This document shows, one piece after another, positions 42,214 through 50,007 of a stretch of 64,000 bases of DNA. Numbering within the stretch: the stretch's first letter is position 1; every line of letters begins with the position of its first letter. This stretch comes from Desulfuromonadales bacterium (lineage in GTDB: Bacteria; Desulfobacterota; Desulfuromonadia; Desulfuromonadales; BM103), in assembly GCA_014860225.1 (NCBI GenBank), contig JACZKE010000052.1, forward strand, positions 1 to 64,000. Direction: 5' to 3'. Under the pieces are notes generated by a model that was given only the letters and a program-made list of their open reading frames with translations, did no database searches and was not told the DNA's origin. The position numbers were made by a program, and so were the translations under genes.

Positions 42214-44538
42214 ATGAATATCAGACAACGGGTTACGCAGCTTTTGCAGAGGATGCATCAAGCACCTCAATACCCGAGCCAGGGCGCAGTACTCTTTGTT
42301 GACCTCGAACAACGCAGCTGCCAACGTGGCTACCTGCCACTTGCTGCGGTCCGACACTTTCTGGCCGGCCGCGGCGGTAACATGTACCTGCTTTACAACC
42401 TGCTGCAGGAAGAAAAGGACGCACTCGATCCCGAGGTCCCCTTGATTTTCGGTTCCGGAGTTCTGACCAGCAACATGCCGGGTGCTACCCGTGGCAACGT
42501 CACCAGTCGTTCACCGGAGAGCCGGGCGATTCTTGACAGCAATGCCGGTGACTATTTCCCTGCGTATCTCAAGCGCCACGGTTACGATCATCTGGTCCTC
42601 TACGGACGCAATCCTGAGTGGACACTACTCAAAATCCAGCAGGAGCAGATCGACTTTATCGATGCCACACCCTATCGCGGTATGGACAACATTGCTTTTA
42701 CTGAGGCGATTGAGGGTGATTTCGACTGTTGCGAGCGCAAAGATATGGCCATGGCGCGCATCAGCAGCGCTGGCGAGAACCAGGTCCTGTGCAGCGGCAT
42801 CATGGCGGGGGAGAAATCGATCTGGGCCCGCGGTGGCGGCGGTGCCAAGATGGGATCGTTGCATCTGAAGGCGGTTCTCATCCAGGGCAAACCTCCTGCC
42901 TTCGATCTCAGCGAGGATTTCAAACAGAAAAACCGGGATATCGGCAAAAAAATCCTCGCGGCGAGTGTGGTCCAGAACGCGCTCAAAAAAGTCGGCACCC
43001 CCTTCCTCTACAAACCGAGTCGGGTGCTCGGCGCCATGGGTACCAAAAATAACCAGGAGACCACCTGGTTCGACAGCCTCGATGCCGACAACTTCGATCC
43101 CTATCGACCGGGGATGAGCCGCTGCTACCAGTGCCCGGTCGGTTGCCGTGCCAACAACGACATGCTCCCCGGCGGCAAAGGTGGCTGGGGCGCCAGTGCC
43201 CTGACCGGTCTTAACGGCAATGCCAGCTACGATAAAGCGCAGAGTGCCCTGGAACATCACAAACGACGCAGCTACAACGGCATCAACAACGATGGCAAGT
43301 TTGATCAGTACGACAAGGGGGAAGGGCCGGAATACATCATCGTCGGCAAGTTCGGTCCCAATATCGGCATTAAAGAGCCGGAGCAGGTCCTGCGACTGAA
43401 CAATATTCTCAACGATCTGGCTCTCGATGCTTCGAGTACCGGCAGCGCCATCGCCTGGGCCATGGAACTTTACCAGCGCGGCATCATCGACCGGAAGACT
43501 ACAGGTGGGCTGGAACTGACCTGGGGCAACTACCCGATCATCGAGCAGTTACTGTTCATGACCGCCAAACGCGAAGGTTTCGGTGACACCATCGCCGCCT
43601 CCAGCCGTGCTGTCGAACAGGGCAAATACCCGTCCGCGGCCCTGGACTACTGCATGGCTTCCAAGGGACTGTTTCAGTCCGACCCCCATGACGCCCGAAT
43701 TCTCAAAGCCTTTGCCCTGGGGTTGGCGGTTGCCACCCGAGGTATGGATCACCTGCGCAATCGGGCCACCCTGGAGATCAACGCCCGTATCAACGATGAC
43801 GCCGACTTCAAGACCGCCCTCTACGGCGGCGTGGTCTCCCCCGAACCGACCTCCTATTTGGGCAAAGAGTACGCGGTCCGGCGCTGTGAAAACACCTTTG
43901 CTGTGGGTGATGCGATCGGCATGTGCCGCTTCAATACCAAGCTGTTCAATTCGCCGAACACGCCTGATCTGGAGGATTTTGCCGCCCAGCTCAATGAATT
44001 GACGCACCTGTCTTTCGATGTCGCGCAACTGGATGAAATCGGCCGCAACATTACCGGACTGGAACGCATGCTCAACTTCCGTCTCGGTCTGCGCGGTGAT
44101 GATGACACTTTGCCGGAGCGCTGGTTCGAAGAATCGATCAAGGTGGGGCCTTTCACTGGCGAAAAGATCGATCGGCAACAGTTTGCCGACCTCAAACAGC
44201 GCTTCTACAAGTTGACCGGACTCAATAGCGAAGGTGTTCCCGCTCTCGACTGGCACACCAGGCTCTCGAAGCTCGTTACCGGTTACAGCATCAGGGTCAA
44301 GTTCCCCTGTGTGGTTCCTGGTGCACCGGAACAGTACCTCATAATCGACGAACAGGTCGCGAATCTGAGCGAGTTGCGCCAGCTTTTGTGGCGAAGACTG
44401 CCCGAGGCGCACTCGATTCTGAATGATCCGAACCTCAATTTCGTTATCAACGGCAAGATGATTCTTGCAGGTGAAAAGCAGACCGAAATCCCTGACGGCA
44501 GCGAGGTTGGTCTGATCTCCTACGTATCGGGAGGGTAA
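42214..44538 (+). CDS. aor: Aldehyde:ferredoxin oxidoreductase with C-terminal MoaD-like domain
   Basis: 774 aa, about 100-150 longer than common AOR proteins. Residues 1 to about 680 are a tungsten/molybdopterin aldehyde oxidoreductase oxidising aldehydes to acids with ferredoxin. The [4Fe-4S] ligands are Cys304, Cys307, Cys311 and Cys571 (SRCYQCPVGC; GMCRFN), and the pterin-binding region includes ARGGGGAKMGSLHLKA. From about 690 a ubiquitin-like MoaD/ThiS domain follows and the protein ends in Gly773-Gly774, as free MoaD does. The likely substrates here are arylacetaldehydes formed from arylpyruvates. Confidence 0.88.
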   Translation: MNIRQRVTQLLQRMHQAPQYPSQGAVLFVDLEQRSCQRGYLPLAAVRHFLAGRGGNMYLLYNLLQEEKDALDPEVPLIFGSGVLTSNMPGATRGNVTSRSPESRAILDSNAGDYFPAYLKRHGYDHLVLYGRNPEWTLLKIQQEQIDFIDATPYRGMDNIAFTEAIEGDFDCCERKDMAMARISSAGENQVLCSGIMAGEKSIWARGGGGAKMGSLHLKAVLIQGKPPAFDLSEDFKQKNRDIGKKILAASVVQNALKKVGTPFLYKPSRVLGAMGTKNNQETTWFDSLDADNFDPYRPGMSRCYQCPVGCRANNDMLPGGKGGWGASALTGLNGNASYDKAQSALEHHKRRSYNGINNDGKFDQYDKGEGPEYIIVGKFGPNIGIKEPEQVLRLNNILNDLALDASSTGSAIAWAMELYQRGIIDRKTTGGLELTWGNYPIIEQLLFMTAKREGFGDTIAASSRAVEQGKYPSAALDYCMASKGLFQSDPHDARILKAFALGLAVATRGMDHLRNRATLEINARINDDADFKTALYGGVVSPEPTSYLGKEYAVRRCENTFAVGDAIGMCRFNTKLFNSPNTPDLEDFAAQLNELTHLSFDVAQLDEIGRNITGLERMLNFRLGLRGDDDTLPERWFEESIKVGPFTGEKIDRQQFADLKQRFYKLTGLNSEGVPALDWHTRLSKLVTGYSIRVKFPCVVPGAPEQYLIIDEQVANLSELRQLLWRRLPEAHSILNDPNLNFVINGKMILAGEKQTEIPDGSEVGLISYVSGG

Positions 44539-49372: not shown

Positions 49373-49469
49373 AACGCAGGCGCAAAGAGGAGCTTTTTTA
49401 AGAAAACATGTTTTTTTTGCGTCTAGCTTGACCTCTTTGCGCCTTGAGTGAGCGAAGCGAACGGGCGTT
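49373..49469. repeat. Dispersed palindromic repeat, copy C
   Basis: In the gap before the peroxiredoxin gene. A perfect 12-bp inverted repeat GGCGCAAAGAGG (49379-49390) with CCTCTTTGCGCC (49432-49443), then the conserved tail CTTGAGTGAGCG.. ending GAACGGGCGTT at 49469. Same family as copies A and B. Confidence 0.78.
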
Positions 49470-49527
49470 GAGGTTAATGGTTGTGATTTCACAGTGGTCA
49501 GCCACGAAAAAGCAAAAGGAGGTTCCG

Positions 49528-50007
49528 ATGAAACGACTCATCCGCGCCGGCGCGGTCGTCGCGGCAACGCTGCTGGCTTCGAATGCCGCGGCTCTGCAGA
49601 TTGGCGATGCGGCTCCTGATTTCAGAGTAATCTCAACAGATGGAGAGATAACTCTCAGCCGGGTCCTGGAGAAGGGGCCGGCAGTTCTGGCACTTTATTA
49701 TGCCGATTTCACTTCCGGGTGAACCAGTGAAATGCAGGCTTTTCAAAACGACTTTGTGCGTTTTGAAAAGCGCAACGCCCAGGTTCTGGGCGTAAGCGGC
49801 GATACTCTGGAAACTCACAAGGACTTTGCCAGGGAACTCGGTTTGAGCTTCCCGCTGCTTGTTGATGATGGTTCAATCCGTAAGATGTATGGCAGCGGCC
49901 GGATTACCTACCTCATCGACCAGTCCGGCACCATTCGTTACGTCCATAAGGGGATGCCGGATAACGACAGGCTGATTCAGGAAATAGACAACCTGCAGTC
50001 TTATTGA
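49528..50007 (+). CDS. Exported selenocysteine peroxiredoxin (in-frame UGA read as Sec65)
   Basis: 159 aa including Sec65. ATG 49528 follows AAAGGAGG by 5 bases. Residues 1-22 are a signal peptide (MKRLIRAGAVVAATLLASNA). The mature part is a BCP/AhpC-type thioredoxin fold (IGDAAPDF, then YYADFTSG-U-TSEMQAF), with TGA (49720-49722) exactly at the peroxidatic Cys of the T-x-x-C-T-x-E motif. The frame continues after TGA with full homology (GVSGDTLETHKDFARELGLS, VDDGSIRKMYG) to TGA-independent TAA/TGA stop at 50007. There is no Cys elsewhere, so it is a 1-Sec enzyme needing an external reductant. A normal stop-codon mutation is unlikely given the SECIS at 49739. It would reduce peroxides in the periplasm. 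Confidence 0.9.
49739..49770 (+). promoter_or_regulatory. Bacterial SECIS hairpin for the peroxiredoxin
   Basis: A perfect 12-bp stem, CTTTTCAAAACG with CGTTTTGAAAAG, around the 8-base loop ACTTTGTG. It starts 16 bases after the UGA, placing the apical loop about 30 bases downstream, within the range known for bSECIS. The loop contains GUG. SelB would bind here. Confidence 0.85.

Follow-up and report, generated by a model that had tools for sequence, protein, structure and literature searches.

A predicted exported, cysteine-free selenoperoxiredoxin from a Desulfuromonadales bacterium and its sampled Sec-containing relatives

A reading frame for a peroxiredoxin-like protein in a Desulfuromonadales genome is interrupted by a TGA codon at the position of the peroxidatic Cys. 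This raises the question of whether the codon is read as selenocysteine (Sec) and, if so, where in the cell the enzyme would act and what would reduce it. The window that we analysed is a 64,000-nucleotide stretch of this genome, in which the frame runs from an ATG at 49528 through the in-frame TGA at 49720-49722 to a TGA stop at 50005-50007 (Table 1); a mechanical list of open reading frames breaks the gene into two at the first TGA. The AhpC/TSA profile PF00578 matches residues 25-139 of the product with 96.3 bits (cut-off 26). There is no Cys anywhere in the 159-residue precursor, which carries the first-pass annotation's claim of a Cys-free mature protein over to the complete chain.

A promoter scan found no sigma-70-like match and gave weak terminator-like matches, comparison with a plasmid collection and a distant DNA search returned no match, and PHROGs gave a single family of unknown function at 42 bits. 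Rfam at gathering scores and ARAGORN found nothing on the 64-kb window. Two other features of the window were recorded. Upstream of the gene lies an intergenic inverted repeat with perfect 13-nt arms 41 nt apart (49378-49390 and 49432-49444), which may be mobile or regulatory. An aldehyde ferredoxin oxidoreductase (AFOR_N, AFOR_C; 42214-44538, plus strand) carries a ThiS-like C-terminal stretch (24.2 bits, residues 710-774), as if a sulfur/ubiquitin-like carrier had been fused onto it.

Table 1. Features of the selenoperoxiredoxin locus (window coordinates)
Feature	Position	Strand	Details
Shine-Dalgarno-like AGGAGG	49517..49522	+	upstream of ATG, 6/6 match
Selenoperoxiredoxin gene	49528..50007	+	159 residues + stop, TGA codon 65 as Sec; Pfam AhpC-TSA
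Putative signal peptide, residues 1-22	49528..49593	+	KR near start, hydropathy, A.A motif
Tyr58	49699..49701	+	Pro position of PxxxTxxC motif
Thr62 of TxxU	49711..49713	+	sequence, alignment
Sec codon TGA	49720..49722	+	residue 65, peroxidatic position
SECIS hairpin	49738..49771	+	12-13-bp stem, 8-10 nt loop
Arg125	49900..49902	+	conserved in alignments A2 and A3

The in-frame TGA is conserved among close relatives. When 195 genomes (own genome included) were searched with Sec written as Cys, all 55 best places, at E <= 8e-32 and from 41 genomes, carried it; below them the next match, at 2.2e-19, is without TGA, and weaker matches are mixed. A TAA also recorded in five of the 55 is their C-terminal stop. 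Among the matches listed in an alignment search of 395 phylum genomes, the nine at E <= 5e-58 (own genome included) all had the TGA, and the next match stood at 6e-33. As a measure of coding constraint, differences between the window gene and 23 homologues were counted at codon positions 1, 2 and 3, giving 206/194/550 for the part that precedes the TGA, starting at residue 24, and 442/296/906 for the part that follows. Residue 65 lies opposite Cys in all six Cys homologues placed in alignment A2. The first-pass annotation had held that the TGA replaces the peroxidatic Cys and that homology continues in frame beyond it; the conserved codon and the aligned Cys residues bear out the one, and the persisting third-position bias, with an AhpC/TSA frame that runs to 50007, bears out the other. 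It had also proposed checking that homologues have Cys or Sec at residue 65, as they do, and looking in the genome for selA, selB, selC and selD, all of which are present.

Within this machinery, selA, selB and selD are consecutive (C41:6016-10103); ARAGORN found no tRNA at these loci, and the tRNA-Sec gene selC lies elsewhere, at C56:147259-147350. The selD gene itself has an in-frame TGA, at SGU, and is a second Sec-decoding gene of the genome. Across genomes, selA was found in 46 of the 47 that encode a protein of the clade described below (it is absent in G004, which is 59% complete, and G095 has only a weak 34-bit partial match). Of 33 chosen genomes that lack such a protein, 28 also have selA, and its co-occurrence with the clade protein is uninformative.

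A hairpin just past the TGA, described by the first-pass annotation as perfect over 12 bp, was recovered as such: the inverted repeat is perfect over 13 bp (49738-49750 with 49759-49771), or 12 bp with the top G-C open, and begins 15 nt after the TGA, which places the loop 27-28 nt from the UGA. Within the window, both strands counted, a perfect stem of at least 12 bp with its loop 16-37 nt downstream follows only 2 of 2276 TGA triplets, and these two, the Sec TGA and an overlapping triplet at 49728, share this one hairpin. By folding energy alone it stands out only modestly (z -2.78; equalled by 3 of 200 shuffles). Covariation was scored in 50 sequences (48 distinct, the window gene included) out of 59 Sec sequences, a set without the distant L097-L102 and L104-L106. 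The stem was that of the window gene, a choice that gives it an advantage over slid versions. The score was 0.333 against 0.219 +/- 0.010 in shuffles, none of 500 reaching it, and at most 0.186 when the stem was slid; double-change cells numbered 38 against 12.6 expected (0 of 500 shuffles), and standard pairs filled 91.0% of pair cells against 85.0% in shuffles. Two of the five measures are weak. Pairs changed on both sides number 5 against 3.5 in shuffles, 70 of 500 of which reach 5, and a shift of the stem by -1 gives 7. For further pair types the figures are 18 against 15.1 (10 of 500 shuffles), and the shifted stem again gives 18. From the 50-row alignment, RNAalifold retained eight pairs at -1.22 kcal/mol, a weaker result than the per-pair count.

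Where the hairpin departs from expectation is in its loop. Its stem, spacing and energy (-19.0 kcal/mol) fall within the model in Fig. 2 of PMC13188914 (4-16 bp, 16-37 nt and <= -7.5 kcal/mol). The rule given in that part of the review also asks for a loop of 3-9 nt in which G is first or second; minimum-energy folds conform in 7 of 50 sequences, and that of the window gene does not. The window-gene loop is either the 8-nt ACTTTGTG, which starts with A, or, when the top G-C stays unpaired, a loop of 10 nt that opens with G. This G (column 31) is invariant in all 50 sequences, in part because it is the first base of an Asp, Glu or Gly codon, and could pair with the C of column 40 in 38 of them to leave an 8-nt loop. 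A passage of the same review states that certain true bacterial SECIS elements fail the model. The hairpin is in our view a real SECIS that departs from the published loop consensus, and the label "textbook SECIS" attached to it earlier was too strong. Taking together the conservation of the TGA, the coding constraint, the hairpin and the presence of selA, selB, selC and selD, we regard it as virtually certain, on sequence evidence, that the gene at 49528-50007 encodes a selenoprotein whose UGA at residue 65 would be decoded by SelB through the SECIS.

The protein itself has a peroxiredoxin fold, on the Bcp/PrxQ-AhpE side of the family. The AlphaFold2 model, built from 25 sequences, is that of a peroxiredoxin (mean pLDDT 89.1, pTM 0.81), with residues 1-20 below 50. 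With this predicted model as the query, the nearest solved chain was BcpB (5epf; Z 23.4, rmsd 1.2, 137 aligned residues), followed by Bcp1 (3drn, Z 23.2), and 1-Cys AhpE structures were a little lower, at Z about 22. The AhpE (1xvw, 4x0x) and Bcp/PrxQ (5epf, 3drn) structures thus share the fold, at Z 21-23 over about 137 residues; they differ in having Cys rather than Sec, at 28-32% identity over the aligned part, and the comparison carries no link to export or to selenium. The 159-residue chain has no resolving Cys, as in the 1-Cys/1-Sec class, and Arg125 is presumably the conserved active-site Arg of peroxiredoxins. The residues TSGU at 62-65 fit the T/SxxU motif as worded in the passage of PMC1794560 that was found. 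The Pro at -7 of the PxxxTxxU motif, as quoted from PMC13188914, is replaced by Tyr58 in the window gene.

The N-terminus is signal-like by rules, as the first-pass annotation had supposed: KR, a hydrophobic stretch (best 11-residue hydropathy 2.17) and an A.A motif, with cleavage estimated to fall after A20-A-A22. This call, like those for the clade, was made by simple hydropathy and motif rules. Read as a signal peptide, this N-terminus predicts that the enzyme acts outside the cytoplasm, and on these rules export seems very probable. Among 58 clade N-termini a strict RR motif occurs in 7, a loose twin-basic one in 38 and A.A in 32; TatC is present in the own genome. The first-pass annotation had called an exported, resolving-Cys-free selenoperoxiredoxin unusual, noting that the Sec protein must cross the Sec or Tat system; for Sec proteins beyond the cytoplasm there are precedents. 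FdnG of E. coli is a Sec protein outside the cytoplasm. So is the large subunit of the periplasmic [NiFeSe] hydrogenase of Desulfovibrio vulgaris, named in a passage of PMC1914089, although this metalloenzyme is unrelated to the selenoperoxiredoxin, and a passage of PMC2398784 describes predicted secreted-protease selenoproteins.

To place the gene among its relatives, we used a tree comprising 94 proteins, 68 with Sec and 26 with Cys. One group (support 99/98) unites 63 of the Sec rows and contains none of the Cys rows; the other five Sec rows fall elsewhere. Fourteen of 108 proteins had been left out: L027, L029, L110, L123 and L131 as near-copies, and L061-L066 and L092-L094 (Cys) because they were distant or their starts were in doubt, which leaves the Cys side under-sampled. 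Loci L052-L057 were set aside because their contigs are shared with other loci, and the counts over 63 rows take in L045 and L086, whose start codons could not be placed. "Sec-only" is limited to the sampled proteins, because sampling began from matches to the selenoperoxiredoxin and Cys relatives are fewer.

Most of the clade shares what is unusual in the window gene. An exported-looking N-terminus is found in 58 of the 63 members (57 with a clear hydrophobic N-extension, and L032 with a weak one that matches its neighbours). The N-extension is absent in L071 and L073-L076, which group together inside the clade (100/95), and their placement suggests, from the sequences, that the signal may have been lost once within it. 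The mature part has no Cys in 57 members; in the other six a Cys follows the N-extension or lies in a cytosolic-looking protein (L045, whose frame is broken downstream, L069, and cytosolic-looking L073-L076). Position -3 is Thr in 60 rows and Ser in 3, and the Arg pattern is present in 62, the exception being L045 with its broken frame. Position -7 is Tyr in 32 rows, Pro in 16, Phe in 14 and Ile in one, so that 47 are without the motif Pro, which is present in every one of the 31 Cys homologues whose motif could be located (36 examined; the motif was missed in L063 and misplaced in L060, L117, L122 and L128, and these five are outside the count). The earlier judgement that export combined with the absence of Cys is unusual needs adjusting: a signal-like N-terminus without Cys is usual across the Sec-only clade. 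Because the clade shares these features they are more solid, and the single gene is less special.

Several observations concern individual Sec peroxiredoxins. Common to the signal-less paralogues L073-L076 is Cys127 (MICEGM), which may be a recently acquired resolving residue. A distant, predicted exported relative, L099, has by eye a lipobox-like LLLLAC at its N-terminus and may be a lipoprotein. At six loci of distant predicted exported Sec peroxiredoxins (L097, L098, L099, L102, L104 and L106) a conserved small lipoprotein-like gene lies directly 3', and its product is a possible partner of theirs. Elsewhere in the own genome, an AhpC-type protein with an in-frame TGA at TFVU and no obvious signal (L142, G000:C11:85601-86002) is likely, from its sequence, another Sec peroxiredoxin, and a short AhpC-like fragment carrying FTFVU, with a frame that continues into unrelated methyltransferase-like sequence (L148, G000:C29:102321-102419), looks like a remnant of one.

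Selenoperoxiredoxins of the TxxU type have been in print since 2005. In the passages found, PMC1088965 reports 43 sequences, PMC1794560 reports 12 peroxiredoxin selenoproteins and five Cys-to-Sec events (with one from Geobacter metallireducens in its Table 3) and PMC2398784 reports 253 TxxU peroxiredoxin sequences; a figure legend in PMC1914089 names TXXU and has Geobacter rows, the reviews PMC9312934 (with WP_011365628.1 as its Prx example) and PMC13188914 cover Sec peroxiredoxin, and the passages of PMC8318568 hold nothing on peroxiredoxin. The surveyed proteins (TxxU; COG1225/PF00578) share PF00578, TxxU and a bacterial SECIS with ours. Compared by description, they differ in that neither a signal peptide nor export comes up in the passages found, and in the PxxxTxxU motif of PMC13188914 against Tyr in the window gene. 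The literature searched, which comprised titles, abstracts and passages, with subscription papers and supplements largely outside it, describes no exported Sec peroxiredoxin, which is weak evidence that none has been reported. In the same phylum, two-Cys PrxQ-like proteins (L117, L119, L120, L132 and L133) combine the AhpC/TSA fold with a signal-like N-terminus (L117 by eye). They differ in carrying Cys, followed five residues later by another (CTKxAC/CTRxAC), in having the motif Pro, and in falling within a Cys group of their own in the tree. Selenoperoxiredoxins as a type are thus known, and their Cys-free, predicted exported branch seems little described.

On the reading that we prefer, the gene product is a Sec-containing, predicted exported peroxidase, which we consider likely without naming its reductant; that it acts as a peroxidase at all, taken alone, is rated slightly higher. 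The selenolate of Sec65, held by Thr62 and Arg125, would attack H2O2 or an organic hydroperoxide, and oxidised Sec65 would be a selenenic acid without a partner Cys. As there is no resolving Cys, its reduction would need another molecule. In the own genome, a CcdA-like membrane protein adjoins a CPPC thioredoxin-like protein in two places (C40:4517-5637 and C6:218966-220080), and the CPPC proteins, which from their sequences we read as ResA-like, could serve, by the CcdA route, as candidate reductants. We put a CcdA/ResA-like reductant forward tentatively, as a candidate that is somewhat less likely than not. An operon partner was rejected as the reductant: no conserved gene neighbour links one to the selenoperoxiredoxin, no neighbour occurs in more than six of the compared loci, and the neighbours that are shared come from near relatives.

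Observations that weigh against an exported Sec peroxidase are the five signal-less clade members (L071, L073-L076), the Tyr in place of the motif Pro, the SECIS loop that is off the rule, the two weak covariation measures and the lack of a conserved neighbour that would point to a reductant. Were the UGA a true stop, leaving a pseudogene or a 64-residue fragment beside a chance hairpin, the split in the plain ORF list, the modest fold z-score and the lack of an Rfam match in the window at gathering scores would all fit; the same-codon TGA in every one of the 55 close places, the third-position bias beyond it, the covarying hairpin and the complete Sec machinery make this hardly credible, and the pseudogene or plain-stop reading was rejected on conservation, covariation and coding constraint. 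The signal-less members bear on location: a Sec peroxidase kept in, or anchored on, the cytoplasmic side by an uncleaved hydrophobic tail would accord with them, with signal calls made by rules only, and with the absence of strict RR in the window gene and the patchy A.A motif. Yet the N-extension is retained in 58 of 63 members despite widely varying letters, the window gene has KR, a hydrophobic stretch and A.A, and the members without a signal cluster as if through one loss, and we think a cytoplasmic-side enzyme quite improbable.

The Tyr at -7 invites a different view of the chemistry, in which peroxidase activity would not be the main function: an active site with Tyr or Phe for Pro would make the protein a selenol oxidoreductase, or a redox partner, acting on some other substrate. 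The 47 non-Pro members, set against Pro in all 31 located Cys homologues, speak for it; Thr or Ser at -3 in all 63 members, the Arg pattern in 62, a fold nearest to peroxidases and the 16 members that keep Pro speak against it, and we hold it unlikely. The remaining alternative keeps the exported Sec peroxidase and replaces CcdA/ResA-like proteins by c-type cytochromes or small thiols as the electron source. No neighbour connects the selenoperoxiredoxin to CcdA/ResA, and metal-reducing relatives are rich in multihaem cytochromes, which counts for this alternative; known 1-Cys peroxiredoxins take thiol donors, which counts against it, as do the two CcdA/CPPC pairs of the own genome. We judge this source doubtful, if less so than the oxidoreductase.

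Should the preferred reading be right, this one protein would open two questions to experiment: by what means a selenoenzyme that lacks Cys is reduced again beyond the cytoplasm, and whether the use of Sec allows a peroxidase to do without the peroxiredoxin Pro. A wider proposal, which we find about as plausible as its opposite, is that Desulfuromonadales and relatives harbour a Sec-obligate, ancestrally exported 1-Sec peroxidase branch that gave up the resolving Cys and mostly the active-site Pro and draws its electrons from outside the cytoplasm, with one sub-branch returned to the cytosol, where four of its five members gained Cys. Because plain ORF finding readily breaks genes of this kind at the TGA, annotations may under-represent the clade. 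If the proposal is true, the clade would represent a general way to place selenium chemistry in the periplasm of anaerobes.
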